This document shows positions 20,268-57,249 of a DNA stretch of 64,000 bases, in pieces. The translations under genes were made by a program, and so were the position numbers. Location of the stretch: contig JACCQO010000001.1 in the NCBI GenBank assembly GCA_015709205.1, forward strand, positions 124,001 to 188,000, in the 5' to 3' direction. The first letter of the stretch is position 1, and the number at the start of each line of letters is the position of its first letter. Under the pieces are notes generated by a model. That model had not been told where the DNA came from. It saw nothing but the letters and a program-made list of their open reading frames with translations, and did no database searches. The stretch is from Desulfovibrionaceae bacterium (lineage in GTDB: Bacteria; Desulfobacterota; Desulfovibrionia; Desulfovibrionales; Desulfovibrionaceae).

Positions 20268-22151
20268 TCAGTTCTGCGTGCTGCGCAGACGCCGCCAGAG
20301 GGTGGTGGTGCTGATGCCCAGGCGCCGGGCCGTTTCCGCGCGGTTCCCGTCGCATTCGCGCAGGGTGCGGTGGATCATGTGAATTTCTTCCTGGCGGAGC
20401 AGGGAAAGCTTCTGGGGCGCGCGGCAGCATTCCGCCGCCTCCTCGGGGGCATTCTCCAGGTTGCCCAGGATGTCCCTGCGCGTGACCCTGCGCCCCCGGC
20501 ACTCCACCATGATCCGCTCCAGGATGCTCTTCATCTCGCGCACGTTGCCCGGAAAGGAATAGGCGTGCAGCACATCGAGGGCCTCGGCCTCGAACTCCGG
20601 GGGCGGCCCGCCCAGGTGATGGCCGATGTGTCGGCCGTAGTGCTCGATGAGCGTGTCCAGGCAGCTGCCGCGCTGGCGCAGCGGAGGCAGGTGCAGCCGC
20701 AGGACGTTGATGCGGAAGTACAGGTCCTGGCGGAACCGGCCGTCCTCGACCATCTGCGCCAGGTTGCGGTTGGTGGCGCAGAGCACGCGCACGTCCACCG
20801 AAGTCAGCCGCTCGCTGCCCAGACGCATGATCTGGCGCTCCTCGAGCACGCGCAGGAGCTTGACCTGCATGGTCATGGGCATCTCGCCGATCTCGTCCAA
20901 AAAGATCGTTCCCGAATCCGCCAGCTCGAAGAGCCCGGCCCTGCCGTTCTTGTGGGCCCCGGTGAAGGCCCCCTCGCTGTAGCCGAAGAGCTCGCTCTCC
21001 AGCAGGTTGTCCGGGAGCGAGGAGCAGTTCAGGGCCACGAACGGGCCGTAGCGCCTGCGGCTGGAGTTGTGGATGCTCTGGGCGATGAGCTCCTTGCCCG
21101 TGCCGCATTCGCCGGTGATCAGCACGGTGGAGTCGGCCACGGCGAACTGGCGCGCCTTGGTGATCAGGGCGCGCATGGCCCTGCCGCTGTGGATGATGTC
21201 CTCGAAATGGTGCTGGGCCACCAACCCCTTTTCGGAAATGGAGTGCTGCTGCTTCCGGTTCCTGGCCGGCGTGGACTCCAGCACGAGCACGGCCCCGAAG
21301 TTCATGCCGTCGCGGGACAGGGGATGCATGCGGCACAGGTATTCCCTGTCTTCCTCCCTGGAGCGGACCACGCCGCCCCAAGGCTCCCCGCGCCCCAGGG
21401 CCTCCAGGATCTCCCCGGAGCGCAGTTGGCGGAATGCGCCGTCCCTGGTGAACAGGGAATCCTCCACGCCGGGGTCCAGGGCCAGGAGCTGGTTGGACTG
21501 TTCGAGCCGCCCCTGGCCGTCGAGCACCAGCACCCCTTCCCGCGAGGAGTTCATGACCACCTGCTGGCGCAGTTCCCACTCCTTTTCGCGGCGCACGACC
21601 TCGGCCATCTGCAGGGCTTCGTCCAGCGTGGTCAGCAGGATGGACTTCTGCGAGCCCAGGGGAAAGCCCTTGAGCCCGTAGGATTCGGCCAGGGAGACGG
21701 AATAGGGGTTGCCCATGACCACGGTGTAGCCCTGCCGGGTGATCGATTCCATGACCCGGGGGATCTCGTCGGAGGACTTCAGTTCGAAGATGCCCAGTTG
21801 CACGGTGATGATCGGCGCGGCCACGCGCGCGGCCTTGACGATCTCGCCGAAGCCGATGACCGCGATGCGGTCGCTGTACTGGCGGGCCTGGTCGATGAGC
21901 GGAATGACGTCGTGGACCGTGATGGGGATGTCCACCACCGGGACGTGGACCGCGGTGCGGATGGATTTCGTGGTTTCGCCCCGGCTGATGAGCACCTTGG
22001 CGCCCAGCTCCACCAGTTCCTGGGCCGCAGGGATGGCCGCCTCGAGCAGCCCCATGCGCAGGGTGAAGTCGAGCACGGATTCTTCCCGAATGGTTTCGAA
22101 CATGGCCATGAGGGCGATGTCCGGGGCAATGACGCCGATGTCCGCAGGCAT
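20268..22151 (-). CDS. Sigma-54-dependent activator with PrpR-N sensor domain
   Basis: 627 residues: PrpR N-terminal ligand domain (~1-185; ELGAKVLISRGETTKSIR and DIPITVHDVIPLIDQA), PAS-like region (~195-300), AAA+ sigma-54 interaction domain (~325-560) and Fis-type HTH at the end (ETARRLGISTTTLWRRLR). Walker A is GECGTGKEL, the sigma-54 loop is GAFTGA, Walker B is FLDEIGEM. PrpR-N domains bind small-molecule ligands (2-methylcitrate in PrpR). It faces the MFS gene convergently with a 64-nt gap and the sensor kinase divergently. It probably activates the sigma-54 promoters at 12742 and perhaps 22274 and 26610 (inference). Confidence 0.92.
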   Translation of the reverse strand: MPADIGVIAPDIALMAMFETIREESVLDFTLRMGLLEAAIPAAQELVELGAKVLISRGETTKSIRTAVHVPVVDIPITVHDVIPLIDQARQYSDRIAVIGFGEIVKAARVAAPIITVQLGIFELKSSDEIPRVMESITRQGYTVVMGNPYSVSLAESYGLKGFPLGSQKSILLTTLDEALQMAEVVRREKEWELRQQVVMNSSREGVLVLDGQGRLEQSNQLLALDPGVEDSLFTRDGAFRQLRSGEILEALGRGEPWGGVVRSREEDREYLCRMHPLSRDGMNFGAVLVLESTPARNRKQQHSISEKGLVAQHHFEDIIHSGRAMRALITKARQFAVADSTVLITGECGTGKELIAQSIHNSSRRRYGPFVALNCSSLPDNLLESELFGYSEGAFTGAHKNGRAGLFELADSGTIFLDEIGEMPMTMQVKLLRVLEERQIMRLGSERLTSVDVRVLCATNRNLAQMVEDGRFRQDLYFRINVLRLHLPPLRQRGSCLDTLIEHYGRHIGHHLGGPPPEFEAEALDVLHAYSFPGNVREMKSILERIMVECRGRRVTRRDILGNLENAPEEAAECCRAPQKLSLLRQEEIHMIHRTLRECDGNRAETARRLGISTTTLWRRLRSTQN

Positions 22152-22273: not shown

Positions 22274-22288
22274 TGGCAGGCAATTTGC
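22274..22288 (+). promoter_or_regulatory. Sigma-54 promoter of the sensor kinase/response regulator operon
   Basis: TGGCAGGCAATTTGC has GG and GC separated by ten bases and is followed by an A/T patch. The expected start site is near 22300, 76 nt before the kinase gene. It places the two-component system itself under an enhancer-binding protein. Confidence 0.75.
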
Positions 22289-25002: not shown

Positions 25003-26412
<1,410 letters not shown>

Positions 26413-48420: not shown

Positions 48421-48792
48421 TCACGGCGCATTGCTTCCTCTGGGCGAAGCAGTGAGCAGTCTCTCCTTCAACAGCTCGGTGAAGTTGCGCCGTCCATCGG
48501 CCACGACATGAATATATACCTCGTTGGAGGTCTTGTTGACCTGGTAGACGACTCTATACCGAGAGACCTGGATTTCCCGATACGACAGGACGTTGATCCG
48601 CTTCAGTTCAGGAGGGATACGCCCCCGGTCGGGGAGTTCGCGCAAGCTGTCCCGCGCCTCGATAAACGTACCCAGAGTCGTTTCGGCGATGTCCGGCCCA
48701 TCTCTATCGGCAATGAAAGAGAAAATGCCCAAGATGTCTTCTTCCGCACGGCGGGTAAACGCGACTCGCCAAGTCCTTTTATCCCCGCTCAT
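48421..48792 (-). CDS. ParE/RelE-family toxin
   Basis: 123 residues: WRVAFTRRAEEDILGIFSFI (~8-27) and LRELPDRGRIPPELKRI (~53-69), then YREIQVSRYRVVYQV (~74-88), the arrangement of ParE/RelE toxins. The partner antitoxin lies directly upstream with a 14-nt overlap. Targets are ribosomes for RelE types or gyrase for ParE types; which applies is not decidable here. The C-terminal ~15 residues beyond LLKERLL are extra. Overall GC is lower than in the neighbouring core genes, in keeping with acquisition. Confidence 0.85.
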   Translation of the reverse strand: MSGDKRTWRVAFTRRAEEDILGIFSFIADRDGPDIAETTLGTFIEARDSLRELPDRGRIPPELKRINVLSYREIQVSRYRVVYQVNKTSNEVYIHVVADGRRNFTELLKERLLTASPRGSNAP

Positions 48793-49069
48793 TGCGTTTC
48801 TCCGCGATCATCTTGCGGATGTCGGCAAAGACCTCGTCCGAATCGCGGAGATTACCGGCTTCCACATCGGCGGCGCTGTCCGCAAGCATACGCAGAAGCG
48901 CCAAACTTTCCTGCATCTGGTCATATGCCCGGACGTTCATCACCACGGCCTTTGCCTCGCCGTTTTGGGTAATGACCATGGGATTGCCCGTTTCATCAAC
49001 GGTCTCAATGAGTTGCTTGGCGTTGTTTTTGAGCCAGGAGATGGGCTTGATATCCGAATGTAGCTGCAT
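48779..49069 (-). CDS. Phd/YefM-family antitoxin
   Basis: 96 residues. DIKPISWLKNNAKQLIETV (~5-23) and GNPMVITQNGEAKAVVMN (~27-44), then VRAYDQMQESLALLRML, give the Phd/YefM fold: N-terminal DNA-binding part and a C-terminal toxin-neutralising helix. It should repress its own promoter together with the toxin. Start ATG 49069 is preceded by the palindromic-looking CATATGG stretch at 49078-49083 which may belong to the operator. Confidence 0.85.
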   Translation of the reverse strand: MQLHSDIKPISWLKNNAKQLIETVDETGNPMVITQNGEAKAVVMNVRAYDQMQESLALLRMLADSAADVEAGNLRDSDEVFADIRKMIAEKRNERG

Positions 49070-51565: not shown

Positions 51566-51580
51566 TGGCATGGCTCCTGC
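51566..51580 (+). promoter_or_regulatory. Sigma-54 promoter of the first CVNH-like gene pair
   Basis: TGGCATGGCTCCTGC with ten bases between GG and GC. The expected start is near 51592, about 85 nt ahead of the gene at 51677. An AT-rich TTTTTTCTCCATAGAATCC tract lies upstream. A near miss with nine-base spacing occurs at 51500-51513. Confidence 0.75.
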
Positions 51581-51676
51581 TCTTCGTGTATGCAAGGACA
51601 CGGGACGGCCGCACGCATTTTGCCGCGCCGCCACCGTTTCCGAGCAAAGCCACACCATCTTGCCAGGAGTACGCTC

Positions 51677-52021
51677 ATGAGCCTTTTCCCATCGTCACGT
51701 TCCCGCATCATCCCGCCGGCCCCCGCCCTGTTGGCCGTCCTGTTGTTGGCCGCAACCCTGCTGCTCCCGGCCGCCGCGCCCGACGCCCTGGCCGGCGGCA
51801 GTTCCAAGAAGACCTGCGGCACCACGATCCCCAGCGGGTCGTACAAAAAATATTGCAAGAACTGGCGCTGGAGCACCTCGTTCACGGCCGACGACAGCAC
51901 GTTCGTCGCCGAGTGCTCCCACAACGGCAAGGGCTACGACAAAAGGATGCTCAGTTGCGGAGAAGTCAAGCAATGCAACTTCGAGCTCTCGTTCCAGGCG
52001 CACTACCTGCGTTGCGACTAG
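51677..52021 (+). CDS. Small secreted CVNH-like protein, paralogue 1
   Basis: 114 residues. A signal segment with a long hydrophobic core (~17-38) ends DALAGGSS. The mature ~75 residues carry six cysteines in the pattern shared by all four paralogues here: TCGTTIPSGSYKKYCKNW, then TFVAEC, then LSCGEVKQC and a final RCD. This resembles the cyanovirin-N homology (CVNH) repeat: G-S-Y-x-x-x-C, a hydrophobic T-A-x-C strand, and N-x-x-G-x-L at the end. Only half the canonical 2-repeat lectin would be present. It is preceded by CCAGGAGTACGCTC and a sigma-54 promoter, with paralogue 2 following at 66 nt. Confidence 0.8.
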   Translation: MSLFPSSRSRIIPPAPALLAVLLLAATLLLPAAAPDALAGGSSKKTCGTTIPSGSYKKYCKNWRWSTSFTADDSTFVAECSHNGKGYDKRMLSCGEVKQCNFELSFQAHYLRCD

Positions 52022-52087
52022 CCAACCCCACGCGGGCCATTGCCCGGCTCGACATCGAATCATCGACGCATTCAAAGGAGCAACTGC

Positions 52088-52378
52088 ATGTCGAAAAATA
52101 TTTTCCGCACGGCTCTCCTGCTGCTGGCCCTGCTTATGCTCGCCGCGCCCGCCATGGCCGGTGGCGTGTCCAATGAAAAGCAGTGCAGCAAGGACTATCC
52201 CGAGGGGTCCTATCTGGACAAATGCAACAACATCTATTGGGATGCACAGGGCAAGCTGCACATGACCTGCGGCACGGCGCCCGTCAACAGGTGCCGGATC
52301 ACGACCACCTGCTCGTTCGTGAAGAACTGCCACTGGAAGCTCGAAAACCCGTACCTGTGCAAGCTGGTCTGCGAATGA
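52088..52378 (+). CDS. Small secreted CVNH-like protein, paralogue 2
   Basis: 96 residues, signal peptide (~1-25, ending AMAGGVS). The mature part has GSYLDKCNNIYW (~41-52), HMTCG, an inserted Arg/Thr-rich loop (APVNRCRITTTC), VKNCHWKLENPY and a final CKLVCE. It has extra cysteines relative to the other three. It likely shares the promoter at 51566 and is followed by a strong terminator. Probably exported to the periplasm or outside; carbohydrate binding is inferred from the fold only. Confidence 0.75.
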   Translation: MSKNIFRTALLLLALLMLAAPAMAGGVSNEKQCSKDYPEGSYLDKCNNIYWDAQGKLHMTCGTAPVNRCRITTTCSFVKNCHWKLENPYLCKLVCE

Positions 52379-52406
52379 TCCGCTTCGCGACCAGCCAGCC
52401 TCACGC

Positions 52407-52440
52407 AAAACGGCCCGCGGCGAACGCCGCGGGCCGTTTT
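52407..52440 (+). terminator. Bidirectional terminator between CVNH-like and CMD genes
   Basis: AAAACGGCCCGCGGCG, loop AAC, exact complement ending CCGTTTT: T-runs on both strands, so it can end both convergent transcripts. Confidence 0.9.
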
Positions 52441-52462
52441 CCTTGCTCGTCGCGCCGCGCCG

Positions 52463-52804
52463 CTACAGAAGGCCGCGCTCTTCCAGATAGGCCACCACTT
52501 CGCCGGTGCGGGAACCGGCCATGGTGCCGCCCAGCGAAATGGAGACGGAGCAGGCCTCGAGAATCTCCTCCCCGGTCGCCCCGGCCTTGACGGCCATGTC
52601 CGCATTGCCGAGCATGCAGCCCATGCAACCGTGCGTCACGGCAATGGCCACGGCGATCATGCGCTTGGTCTTGGCGTCCAGCTTGCCGTCGCTGAAGGCC
52701 TCCTGCTGCTGCATGTCGTAGATCTCGGACATGCCGGGCCGCAGTTCCCGATAGCGCCCCCAGTTCTTCCTGATGTCCGCGATTTTCTCCACACGCTTGT
52801 CCAT
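52463..52804 (-). CDS. Carboxymuconolactone decarboxylase-family (AhpD-like) protein
   Basis: 113 residues, all-helical CMD fold. The redox-type motif HGCMGCMLGNADMAVKAGAT (~58-77) has the CxxC and following His-like position (N here) seen in AhpD-like proteins; the usual His of C-x-x-C-x-x-x-H is replaced by N (CMGCMLGN), so full AhpD thiol chemistry is doubtful. It starts behind AAGGAGCAGATC and is divergent from a LysR-type regulator over a 98-nt gap containing a palindrome. A thiol or small-molecule detoxification role is possible, but not shown. Confidence 0.88.
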   Translation of the reverse strand: MDKRVEKIADIRKNWGRYRELRPGMSEIYDMQQQEAFSDGKLDAKTKRMIAVAIAVTHGCMGCMLGNADMAVKAGATGEEILEACSVSISLGGTMAGSRTGEVVAYLEERGLL

Positions 52805-52865
52805 GATCTGCTCCTTGTTGAAGGTTGCGTTCTGCCGGTATGCGCAGCATGCACGGGCACAATCC

Positions 52866-52880
52866 ATTCGACAAACGAAT
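52866..52880. promoter_or_regulatory. LysR-type operator between the CMD and LysR genes
   Basis: ATTCGACAAACGAAT, arms ATTCG and CGAAT around ACAAA, contains the T-N11-A pattern of LysR-family sites and is the only perfect palindrome in the divergent region. Confidence 0.65.
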
Positions 52881-52902
52881 TCTTTTGATGCTATCGATGC
52901 GT

Positions 52903-53916
52903 ATGTCTGATGGATATACCGACACCATCACCGGCCCGGCCGAAGCGCACGATTCGCTGCGGCTCGCACGCCTGCCGCAGCTCTCCATGGACGCCCTGCG
53001 CACCTTCGTGGCCGCTGCCGAACACGGCAACTTCACCCGGGCGGGCGAGGTGGTGAACCGCTCCCAGTCCGCCGTCTCCATGCAGATCAAGCGCCTGGAG
53101 CAGGACCTGGAATGCAGGCTTTTCGAGCGCAGCGTCCGCGCCGTGCGCCTGACCAACGACGGCGAGACCCTGCTGGGATACGCGCAGCGCCTCGTGCGTC
53201 TGCACGACGAGGCCGTGGCCTCCATGACCGCGCCCGCGATCACCGGCGAGGTGCGGCTCGGGGTGCCGGACGATTACGCCACCCGCTACCTGCCCGACGT
53301 GCTGCTCCGGTTCGCGCGCCAGTGCCCGGGCGTGCGCGTGGAGGTCCGCTGCGACAACACGGGCGCGCTGCGCCGCAGTCTGGAGGAAGGGGAACTGGAC
53401 GTGTGCCTGGCCACCACCGCCATTCCGAACGGCGCTGAGCCCGCCCCCCGCCATCGCGTGCTCGCGGGCGCAAAGGGCGACATCGGCTGCTGGGACAGCC
53501 TGGTCCTGGCGCGCATGCCCCTGGTGTGGGTCGGGGCGCGGCATCTGGACCTGGACGCCATCTGGAACAAAGGCGCGGGCCCGCTGCCGCTGGCCGTGTT
53601 CCACGAAGGCTGCCTGCACCGCAAGGGCGCGCTGGAAGCGTTGCGCCGGGCCGACATCCCCTTCCGCGTGGCCTTTGCCAGCGTGAGCCTGGCGGGCGTC
53701 ATGGCCGCGGTGCGCACGGGCCTTGCCGTGGCGCCCAGCACGGCAGGCTGCGTGGACGCGGCCTGCCGCGTGCTCGGCCCGGAGAGCGGCCTGCCGCCGT
53801 TGCCCGCCGTGCACGTGACCCTGCACCGCCGCACCGCACCGGCCCATCCCGCCGCGGACCGGCTGGCGCAGTTCGTGGTGGAGTGCTTTCGGGAAACGGG
53901 CATTCCCACTGTCTGA
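52903..53916 (+). CDS. LysR-family transcriptional regulator
   Basis: 337 residues from ATG 52903; 52888 and 52897 are in-frame alternatives, and no start has a good ribosome site. An N-terminal extension of ~26 residues precedes the winged HTH: MDALRTFVAAAEHGNFTRAG (~28-47) and SQSAVSMQIKRLEQDLECRL (~53-72). The effector domain begins near 95 (GEVRLGVPDDYATRYLPDVL). It probably controls the divergent CMD gene through the palindrome at 52866. The N-terminal extension is unusual for the family. The effector domain contains several cysteines. Confidence 0.92.
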   Translation: MSDGYTDTITGPAEAHDSLRLARLPQLSMDALRTFVAAAEHGNFTRAGEVVNRSQSAVSMQIKRLEQDLECRLFERSVRAVRLTNDGETLLGYAQRLVRLHDEAVASMTAPAITGEVRLGVPDDYATRYLPDVLLRFARQCPGVRVEVRCDNTGALRRSLEEGELDVCLATTAIPNGAEPAPRHRVLAGAKGDIGCWDSLVLARMPLVWVGARHLDLDAIWNKGAGPLPLAVFHEGCLHRKGALEALRRADIPFRVAFASVSLAGVMAAVRTGLAVAPSTAGCVDAACRVLGPESGLPPLPAVHVTLHRRTAPAHPAADRLAQFVVECFRETGIPTV

Positions 53917-54089
53917 ACCGGGCGATTCTTCCCGCGGGCCGTTGCCTCGCGGCTGGGGCGCAACGGCGTCCAAGGCCCGTGCGACCGGGACGCGGGCACA
54001 GCCGCCATCCCTGCCAACGATATGGACGCCAGCGGATGTCCTTGCGCTGAATATTCGTATATACACATGCATATCAATATGATAGATTC

Positions 54090-54104
54090 TGGCACGTCTT
54101 GTGC
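54090..54104 (+). promoter_or_regulatory. Sigma-54 promoter of the CVNH-like gene 3
   Basis: TGGCACGTCTTGTGC: a perfect TGGCACG -24 element with ten-base spacing to GC, about 61 nt ahead of the gene at 54165. The upstream 54048-54085 tract is very AT-rich (ATATTCGTATATACACATGC), a likely enhancer/DNA-bending region. Confidence 0.85.
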
Positions 54105-54164
54105 TAACGACCGAAGAGGACCCGGGCGACCCATCGCCCGAAACAACCAACCCCGGAGTCTCCC

Positions 54165-54521
54165 ATGAAGGCCAGACGATTCGCCCTGTTCGCTTCGATC
54201 ACCCTGCTCCTGTGCGTGTGCGCCGCCGGACCTGCGCAGGCATCCGATCCCATGCAGCCCCTGGGCCCGCAGCCCCCGTCGAGCCAGTTCGAGTGCGGCG
54301 TGGACATCCCCTCCGGTTCCTACCTGCACACCTGCGTGGAGGGCAGATGGACCGACGCGCAGACCTTCACTGCCGACTGTGAATCCGCCGGGCGGCCCGG
54401 CATGCCGGGCCCGAAGCTCAGGGCGGCCATCGGTTGCGGCAAGATCATGAAGTGCCAATGGAAGCTGCGCAACACCAACGGCAATCTGGAGTGCGAAGGC
54501 GACGCGGTCGGCGTCTACTGA
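54165..54521 (+). CDS. Small secreted CVNH-like protein, paralogue 3
   Basis: 118 residues with signal peptide (~1-26, ending AQASDP). Mature part: FECGVDIPSGSYLHTCVEG (~43-61), TFTADCESAG, AAIGCGKIMKCQWKLRN (~92-108) and NGNLECEG. The PSGSY, TFTA-C, WKLRN-x-NG-L-C elements align with paralogues 1, 2 and 4, and agree with the CVNH 'GxY..C ... LTA.C ... N.dG.L' pattern. It has a 15-residue Pro/Gln linker after the signal. RBS GGAG lies 8 nt upstream. The gene lies 171 nt ahead of paralogue 4. Confidence 0.8.
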   Translation: MKARRFALFASITLLLCVCAAGPAQASDPMQPLGPQPPSSQFECGVDIPSGSYLHTCVEGRWTDAQTFTADCESAGRPGMPGPKLRAAIGCGKIMKCQWKLRNTNGNLECEGDAVGVY

Positions 54522-54692
54522 CGCCCGTTTCGCCGGACTCGGCCCGCGACCGGGAGGTGGATCGCACATCGCCGTCCTATCCATTCCGACCGAGGTCCCA
54601 CGCCGTCGCGCCCAGGCATGGCGGCGTTTTTCCGAAACCGGACCGGGCGCCGCCACGAGCGGCCCGAGCCAAACCACCCATGAGAAACACCC

Positions 54693-55001
54693 ATGACGCA
54701 CCTGCGCACCTTCCTCTTCCGCCCGGCGACCGGTCTGATCGCGGCCGTCCTGATTTCCGCCCTTTGCGCCGCCCCGGCCCTGGCCGGAGGCTCGCTGTCC
54801 AAGACGTGCGGCTCCACCCTCCCGGAGGGATCGTACAGGTCGAACTGCAACCGGCTGGTATGGCGCACGAGCGACACCTTCACGGCCAACTGCAAGAAGG
54901 ACGGGGGCCTGATGACGGCCGCCAACATCTCGTGCGAGAAGATCAAGGACTGCAACTGGAAGCTGAGAAACGACAACGGCGCGCTGAAGTGCGAGGACTA
55001 G
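54693..55001 (+). CDS. Small secreted CVNH-like protein, paralogue 4
   Basis: 102 residues. Signal peptide (~1-31, ending ALAGG). SKTCGSTLPEGSYRSNCN (~35-52), TFTANCKKDGG, NISCEKIKDCNWKLRN (~76-91) and NGALKCED at the end. This is the most canonical member of the four, and its C-terminal half follows CVNH N-x-x-G-x-L closely. It may be co-transcribed with paralogue 3 (171-nt gap, no terminator seen) and is followed by a strong terminator. Confidence 0.8.
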   Translation: MTHLRTFLFRPATGLIAAVLISALCAAPALAGGSLSKTCGSTLPEGSYRSNCNRLVWRTSDTFTANCKKDGGLMTAANISCEKIKDCNWKLRNDNGALKCED

Positions 55002-55062: not shown

Positions 55063-55101
55063 AAAACGGCCCGCGAACGTGGTTCGCGGGCCGCTTTTTT
55101 T
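55063..55101 (+). terminator. Terminator after CVNH-like paralogue 4
   Basis: AAAACGGCCCGCGAAC, loop GTG, complement, then CTTTTTTT. Confidence 0.9.
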
Positions 55102-56234: not shown

Positions 56235-56796
56235 AGTACTCGGAAACAACTTAAGAAGGGGCGGCTGTGGTTGAAAATGACGACGCCAGTGTTCGGCTAC
56301 CCCTCTGCCGGCCCAGCCATTTCGGGCCTACGACTTCGTCATGGGCCGTACGCATGACGGCAAGGCGTTTCGCAGGCTGACCTACGGACTCACCCGAGAA
56401 TGCTTGGCAATTCCCGTTGCCAGAAGGATGCGAAACGAAAACGTCGTGCATGCACTGGCGGAGTTGTTCGTGAGTCGCGGGCACCCCGATTCCCTCCGAT
56501 CCGACAACGGTTCGGAGTTCACGGCGAAACCGATCAGGCAAGGGCTCGAGGCTGTCGGCATGAACACCGCGTTCATCGACCCCGGCAGCCCGCGGGAGAA
56601 CGGGTACAGCGAAAGCTTCGACGGCAAGCTGCGAAACGAGTTGCCGAACGGCGAAATATTCTGTTCGCTCAGGAGGCCAAGGTGGTGACCGAGAATTGGA
56701 GACGGGAATACAACACGATCAGGCCCCATGGCTCGCTGGTGCACGAGCCTCCCGGGCCGGTCGCCTGTCTCCCCCATGTGGGAGACAGGCGACCGG
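56235..56796 (+). pseudogene. Decayed IS3-family transposase remnant 1
   Basis: Reads as an OrfB (rve integrase) with at least two frameshifts: a first piece LKKGRLWL then frame change, then AYDFVMGRTHDGKAFRRLT (56307-56360), TRECLAIPVARRM, RSDNGSEFTAKPIRQGLE (the second catalytic Asp region), DPGSPRENGYSESFDGKLRN (the D-D-E Glu region), frame change, then EAKVVTENWRREYNTIRPH and a C-terminal part. The N-terminal OrfA and the first ~120 residues are absent. Ends in a perfect 17-bp hairpin (56757-56796). It sits 162 nt from the BASS gene. Confidence 0.85.
56757..56796. repeat. Perfect hairpin at the 3' end of IS remnant 1
   Basis: Arms CCGGTCGCCTGTCTCCC and its exact complement, loop of six bases. 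It falls in-frame in the transposase C terminus after the RPHGSL motif. Confidence 0.8.
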
Positions 56797-56865: not shown

Positions 56866-57165
56866 CTACCATCTGCCTTTTGTTTTATAGACAATCTTGA
56901 TGACGGCACCCGGCCCCGGAGTATAATCGACACGTTCCAGCCTGCAGTCTTCGCTCATATAGATTATGTCTGTGCTTTTATCGGGCCCCTCCACACCACA
57001 CGTCTCGTTCACAAAGCACGAGGTGCACATGTACATGGTGGTGGCCTGGCTGGCGGGTGGGAACCCGTCCGTGCCAAGGATATGGGCCATACCGTAGCCG
57101 CAGGCAAATATCGACAGCACAAAAAACACCTTGAAAATACGTTTCCACTTCATTATTCTTAACAT
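56866..57165 (-). CDS. Low-GC orphan secreted/membrane-anchored protein
   Basis: 99 residues from ATG 57165 (AAGGGGTGTGCATA upstream). A hydrophobic signal anchor (KVFFVLSIFACGYGMA, ~12-27) is followed by a mature part with four or five cysteines, among them TMYMCTSCFVNETCGV (~48-63) and SEDCRLERVDYTPGPGAVI (~73-91). GC is far below that of the window, and the gene lies between two IS3 remnants. No family recognised; likely a laterally acquired cargo gene. An ATG at 57246 would add an AT-rich N terminus without ribosome site support. Confidence 0.65.
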   Translation of the reverse strand: MLRIMKWKRIFKVFFVLSIFACGYGMAHILGTDGFPPASQATTMYMCTSCFVNETCGVEGPDKSTDIIYMSEDCRLERVDYTPGPGAVIKIVYKTKGRW

Positions 57166-57249
57166 TATGCACACCCCTTCAGTTTGTGTTATTGACAATA
57201 CTTCACAGATGTAGAGTAAGATGAAAACTTTCTTTTTGTCAAGCAAGGT

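Follow-up and report, generated by a model that had tools for sequence, protein, structure and literature searches.

Single-repeat relatives of cyanovirin-N behind predicted sigma-54 promoters in a Desulfovibrionaceae genome

A 64,000-nucleotide (nt) stretch of a Desulfovibrionaceae genome (contig JACCQO010000001.1, positions 124,001 to 188,000; hereafter the window, whose own numbering is used throughout) carries four paralogous genes for small proteins, each with a leader peptide and a single repeat of the kind found in the lectins of the cyanovirin-N homology (CVNH) family. By computation, the four proteins are homologous to CVNH lectins, with one repeat per chain. The fuller reading that we favor, to which we assign a probability of about 60%, is that they are exported, disulfide-rich single-repeat CVNH relatives, each closing on itself as a domain, expressed in pairs under sigma-54 and binding glycans.

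Homology to CVNH lectins and distribution

All four genes lie on the plus strand at the positions given by the original prediction, which had been made from the sequence alone, and its call of signal peptides agrees with a by-eye reading of the translations, where a hydrophobic leader with an Ala-x-Ala type end is seen in 4/4 (ALA-GG, AMA-GG, AQA-SD, and ALA-GG in genes 1 to 4). The mature domains are 71 to 91 residues long and cysteine-rich, with six cysteines each and eight in gene 2. They can be aligned over the mature part of all four at pairwise identities of 27–45%, with 14 invariant columns (S, C, P, G, S, Y, C, W, C, C, C, L, L, and C), six of which are cysteines. Searched against its own genome, a profile of the four proteins ranked these four first, at E ≤ 1e-38, and everything after them had E values of 0.05 or worse. 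The motifs first described as common to the family were so only in part: GSY-x3-C occurs in all four, while TFTA-x-C, C-x2-I-x2-C-x-W-K-L-x-N, and the terminal NG-x-L-x-C are each limited to genes 3 and 4. At the TFTA-x-C position, gene 1 has TFVAEC and gene 2 KLHMTC; in the following motif, V replaces I in genes 1 and 2, and gene 1 also has F-E-L-S-F instead of W-K-L-x-N.

Homology to CVNH lectins is carried by profile comparison and by fold searches. Across 297 genomes of the phylum (E ≤ 0.01), the family profile found matches beyond the family in just two genomes, in proteins that pass the Pfam CVNH model (PF08881; gathering score 24.5 bits). When the repeat unit was compared with CVNH repeats by hhalign, the probability was 97% (E 1.3e-10 / 6.6e-10), whereas 400 shuffled controls reached at most 6.9% in profile-profile comparison, and a joint profile had cyanovirin-N as its top match among PDB sequences. 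For the AlphaFold model of gene 4, Foldseek ranks 1 to 24 are all CVNH structures (best E 0.011), and the search with the gene 2 model likewise favors a CVNH-like fold; the best structural matches include PDB chains 1n02, 5k79, and 3hnu. The proposal of a CVNH pattern reduced to a single half-module is thereby upheld by profile searches and hhalign despite the absent Pfam match, and the structure prediction suggested as its check, run on genes 4 and 2, found the CVNH fold. One repeat per chain, rather than two tandem strand-exchanging repeats, was found in 4/4 window genes and in three relatives from genus g14. Judged from their sequences, the proteins appear to belong to a known superfamily of lectins, as a branch that the libraries searched fail to recognize, in the form of an exported single half-repeat present in four copies. 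For them, Pfam and NCBIfam gave no CVNH, and the weak matches returned were all to unrelated families and below cut-offs (E 0.005 or worse), the PF08881 profile had no match in their own genome or in 289 genomes of the taxonomic family, and gene 4 alone had none among PDB sequences.

The family was matched at E ≤ 0.001 in 4/349 genomes of the class, in searches that scored the best 16–19 first-look candidates per genome and can miss weak members. These are the source genome (four copies), the only one of its genus, and three genomes of one other genus (g14; G128, G225, and G204, one copy each; 3/348 other class genomes). A search for the same cluster in related genomes, as had been recommended, thus yielded single-copy relatives and no shared gene neighborhood: by eye, the open reading frames (ORFs) about 1.5 kb to each side of the three relatives (L009, L010, and L011) have nothing in common with the window. 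Sigma-54 promoters are not evident in G128 and G225, and G204 has a modest candidate. Six weak matches in five genomes from an order-wide profile search (G123, G166, G177, G223 twice, and G266; E 0.002–0.009) were set aside, five of them falling in the signal-peptide half of the profile, and a match in G229 from the family-wide search (E 0.008, 44-residue frame) was also set aside, with no overlapping ORF CVNH-like by eye. No relatives were found in viral contigs with gene 4 or CVNH half-repeats as query, in genome contigs with two profiles (A1 and A8), or in plasmid and phage records with gene 4. In the open-access literature searched, no paper on cyanovirin-N with Desulfovibrio or with Deltaproteobacteria was found; few subscription papers were covered, so this is no proof of novelty.

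Sugar-site turn and strand arrangement

In a joint alignment, an N-x-[DN]-G turn is present in genes 3 and 4 and in the relatives from G128 and G225, and is absent from genes 1 and 2. The first residue of this turn corresponds to Asn42 of cyanovirin-N, which is part of the sugar pocket (PMC9725752). Genes 3 and 4 would therefore be the likelier sugar binders. It is possible, though we do not think it probable, that the CVNH-derived fold has lost sugar binding altogether and that the products, stapled by disulfides, serve in the envelope or matrix and have a protein as partner. The missing turn in 2/4 proteins, the extra cysteines, and the strong divergence would all suit such a loss, which sits poorly with the turn kept by the other two genes and by two relatives in another genus.

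Each hairpin of cyanovirin-N packs against the sheet of the opposite repeat. Each mature chain of the window family would be a single CVNH half-repeat, consisting of a three-stranded sheet and a C-terminal hairpin. Between sheet and hairpin, the joint alignment shows a linker about six residues longer than that of cyanovirin-N, which carries a helix and two cysteines, and the family has one extra cysteine at the N terminus. The longer linker, with its short helix and extra cysteines, in all likelihood allows the hairpin to turn back onto the sheet of its own repeat, resulting in one self-contained domain equivalent to domain A of cyanovirin-N. One cysteine pair is common to 15/15 aligned repeats, including both cyanovirin-N repeats, and lies at known cyanovirin-N disulfide positions, one of them presumably 8/22. 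The other is the disulfide 58/73 (PMC11112747).

Site A of cyanovirin-N comprises residues 1–38 with 90–101, and site B residues 39–89 (PMC4926178). Among the top 21 Foldseek rows for the gene 4 model, 16 align 47–58 model residues and span the CVNH chain from its beginning to its end, with alignments ending at 101–108 (151 and 167 in 5c8o and 2l9y). These full-span alignments fit domain A (sheet 1–38 plus C-terminal hairpin 90–101), and the hairpin is therefore read as folding back on its own sheet. The remaining five rows (1lom, 4j4c, 3ezm, 3lhc, and 3s3z) cover 42–43 residues, model positions 15–58 at most, and leave the hairpin out; 4j4c is a swapped dimer according to its PDB title, and 3ezm and 1lom we take to be swapped crystals. 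Similarity to the swapped form is described for tandem constructs such as 3s3z (PMC4926178). The model suggests that the C-terminal hairpin closes on its own sheet, as in domain A of monomeric cyanovirin-N; we infer this closure and the disulfide pairs, since Foldseek output consists of first and last aligned residues without coordinates.

Alternatively, single repeats from different chains might combine, either in a swapped homodimer or in a heterodimer of each pair's two proteins, and so rebuild a two-repeat CVNH domain. Cyanovirin-N does form domain-swapped dimers (PMC4926178), and the genes are arranged in pairs. We nevertheless consider such pairing unlikely: the three relatives have one gene each, so that a heterodimer is not needed and an obligate heterodimer of each pair is not supported; the four proteins do not fall into A and B types (gene 4 is nearest to gene 3, at 45%, and to gene 1, at 41%, in a tree with low support of 0.28–0.78); the monomer model appears self-closing; and the half-repeats of the CVNH relatives in genus g105 are odd in number (three).

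Predicted sigma-54 promoters and cluster layout

The original prediction placed a sigma-54 type −24/−12 site before each of the two pairs (Table 1). Each site agrees with the consensus known from Desulfovibrio vulgaris, tGGcacg / tTGCt (PMC4641369), fits TGGCACG-N4-TTGC with GG and GC 10 nt apart, and lies upstream of the first gene of a pair. Their weighted consensus scores are 15.3 and 14.5 of 16.1 points. For genes 1 and 3, 0/500 mononucleotide shuffles equaled the best site in the preceding 300 nt, compared with 144/500 and 188/500 for genes 2 and 4, which have no sigma-54 type site of their own upstream. A longer pattern fitted to both sites is found without mismatches at these two sites alone in the window.

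Genome-wide, TGGCAYG-N5-TGCT occurs 23 times and its reversed form 10 times; therefore, up to about 10 of the 23 may be chance. At 20 of 21 loci (L046 and L053, not centered, were left out of the count), an ORF of at least 80 codons with a Shine-Dalgarno-like word follows within 300 nt, such ORFs being common in GC-rich DNA. Pfam names downstream include NifH, FlgE, FliM, DctQ, GAF/sigma-54 activator, and MCP, among others. With nifH, flgE, and fliM among the genes that follow it, the pattern marks real sigma-54 promoters in this genome, and the two sites before the pairs stand as predicted promoters near consensus. Sites before genes 1 and 3, none before genes 2 and 4, and hairpins after genes 2 and 4 point to gene 1–gene 2 and gene 3–gene 4 as the likely transcription units. 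The hairpin after gene 2 is absent from the plus-strand list of a terminator consensus scan. The genome has 46 Sigma54_activat matches (44 at E below 1e-40; the model also matches 14/14 control genomes), none within 25 kb of the cluster. Upstream of both promoters, no inverted repeats (arms of at least 6) or shared enhancer motif were found; they share two 9-mers.

Table 1. Features of the gene cluster, in window positions; aa, amino acids; pLDDT, predicted local distance difference test
Feature	Position	Strand	Description
Gene 1	51677–52021	+	114 aa: leader peptide and one CVNH-like half-repeat; 6 Cys in mature part; without N-x-[DN]-G turn
Gene 2	52088–52378	+	96 aa: leader peptide and one CVNH-like half-repeat; 8 Cys in mature part; without N-x-[DN]-G turn; model pLDDT 77.4
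Gene 3	54165–54521	+	118 aa: leader peptide and one CVNH-like half-repeat; 6 Cys in mature part; N-T-N-G turn present
Gene 4	54693–55001	+	102 aa: leader peptide and one CVNH-like half-repeat; 6 Cys in mature part; N-D-N-G turn present; model pLDDT 89.6
Predicted sigma-54 −24/−12 type site, TGGCATGGCTCCTGCT	51566–51581	+	ends 95 nt before start codon of gene 1
Predicted sigma-54 −24/−12 type site, TGGCACGTCTTGTGCT	54090–54105	+	ends 59 nt before start codon of gene 3
Hairpin 3′ of gene 2	52408–52439	+	14 bp stem, −30.1 kcal/mol, short U run; likely terminator of first pair
Terminator-like hairpin 3′ of gene 4	55067–55100	+	stem 55067–55093, then U run; also in consensus scan
Carboxymuconolactone decarboxylase (CMD) family gene	52463–52804	−	between pairs; outside the family; ORF extends to 52867, start at 52804 chosen
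LysR-type regulator ORF	52825–53916	+	between pairs

The CMD and LysR genes do lie between the pairs, as first described, on the minus and plus strands, respectively; that they were inserted there is unproven. To our knowledge, LysR regulators are not sigma-54 activators, so a link of this one to the lectin-like genes is doubtful. Farther along the window, an integrase-core (rve) ORF at 56341–56688 probably belongs to an insertion element, and a small ORF at 56866–57246 (minus strand) has a hydrophobic stretch and several cysteines. Two sigma-54 activator domains (20694–21194 and 25468–25965) have sigma-54-like sites in their vicinity, at 22274 and 26610. Elsewhere in the genome, contig C20 encodes a 104-residue cysteine-rich protein with a leader peptide (L042:1089–1400, minus) and a sigma-54-like site 100 nt upstream; its mature part starts AGG, as in the family, it belongs to no Pfam family, and its contig has no match to the family profile. 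On the same contig are a CesT-type secretion chaperone preceded by a sigma-54-like site (L040:988–1440, minus) and, less than 1 kb from the L042 site, a 99-residue ORF that matches LcrG weakly, below cut-off (L041:986–1282, minus), possibly sigma-54-linked type III secretion-like genes.

Several results weigh against our reading of the cluster. PF08881 gave none of the four proteins a CVNH match at E ≤ 10 (Pfam), and the family profile alone retrieved from PDB sequences PCNA chains only (E 0.46 or worse) and no cyanovirin. Among all 16-mers of both window strands, the 51566 site ranks joint third and the 54090 site joint first, ranks inflated by score weights and a pattern that were fitted after the sites had been seen. 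The consensus with up to three mismatches is not enriched window-wide (85 found vs 111 expected), and with two mismatches allowed, 23/100 shuffles also reach two occurrences of the longer pattern.

Small secreted anti-phage or antimicrobial effectors could likewise be cysteine-rich and patchily distributed, as these probably secreted proteins are, and phage defense was among the roles first suggested; we regard it as very improbable. PADLOC matched 0/7 family proteins at E ≤ 0.1, PHROGs gave weak matches only (E 0.025–0.083) to families of unknown function, gene 4 had no match in phage or plasmid records, and a defense role thus finds no support in these searches. Of ten neighboring ORFs scanned, only a ParE / Phd-YefM type toxin-antitoxin pair a few kilobases upstream of the cluster (48421–49069, minus) is conceivably defense-linked. 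Chance resemblance to CVNH deserves almost no credence: cysteine patterns can mislead, and the Pfam and PDB negatives above would agree with it, but shuffles with cysteines fixed reached at most 4.7% probability against 97%, and the fold search agrees with CVNH.

Possible function and comparison with known systems

Under the reading of exported single-repeat CVNH relatives, each pair would be co-transcribed under sigma-54 with some enhancer-binding protein, and the proteins would be exported and oxidized. They would bind glycan at the cell surface or in the extracellular matrix, the bacterium's own polysaccharide being likelier than a foreign target; we put the odds of this surface or matrix binding, the role we favor, at about even. 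In D. vulgaris, sigma-54 operons for flagella and the cell exterior, with secreted polysaccharide and biofilm among their subjects, make up the largest group (37; PMC4641369), and exported CVNH-type modules would fit such a cell-exterior program.

Quite tentatively, the family could be a natural self-closed single-repeat cyanovirin, that is, an exported lectin of about 70 residues in which strand exchange is replaced by a longer, disulfide-locked linker, with four sigma-54-controlled copies as turn-diversified glycan readers. If true, such a form may be similar to what existed before CVNH arose by duplication, or to a later reversion from the duplicated state. Cyanovirin-N is made of two strand-exchanging repeats, and the folding problem posed by its domain swapping has been studied for a long time (PMC4926178). 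Given a rare, natural form with one repeat, which Pfam does not match, one can ask by direct test whether half a CVNH is able to fold and bind by itself; this form also brings CVNH-type proteins to a taxonomic family in which the PF08881 search gives none.

Compared with D. vulgaris sigma-54 promoters, those of the window pairs have both elements and the 10-nt GG-to-GC spacing, whereas no enhancer site or neighboring enhancer-binding protein was found (promoter upstream scans; 25 kb). With cyanovirin-N and other CVNH lectins (PF08881), the window proteins share a homologous half-repeat, the same strand order in the model, the invariant cysteine pair at cyanovirin-N positions, and, in 2/4, the N-x-[DN]-G-x-L turn. 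They differ in having one half-repeat per chain instead of two, a longer cysteine-bearing linker, an extra N-terminal cysteine, a leader peptide, and no Pfam match. Outside the family, the nearest sequence relatives found are CVNH proteins from genus g105 of this phylum (L026, L027, and L029), whose odd number of repeats leaves one without a partner in its chain if strands are exchanged two by two. Like the window proteins, these have a leader-like N terminus and repeat ends of the form P-x-G-[SP]-[WY] and N-x-x-G-x-L-x-C; unlike them, they have three tandem half-repeats per chain and pass Pfam CVNH at 59–62 bits. In the joint alignment, the g105 linker is three residues shorter than that of the family and stands between the family and cyanovirin-N.

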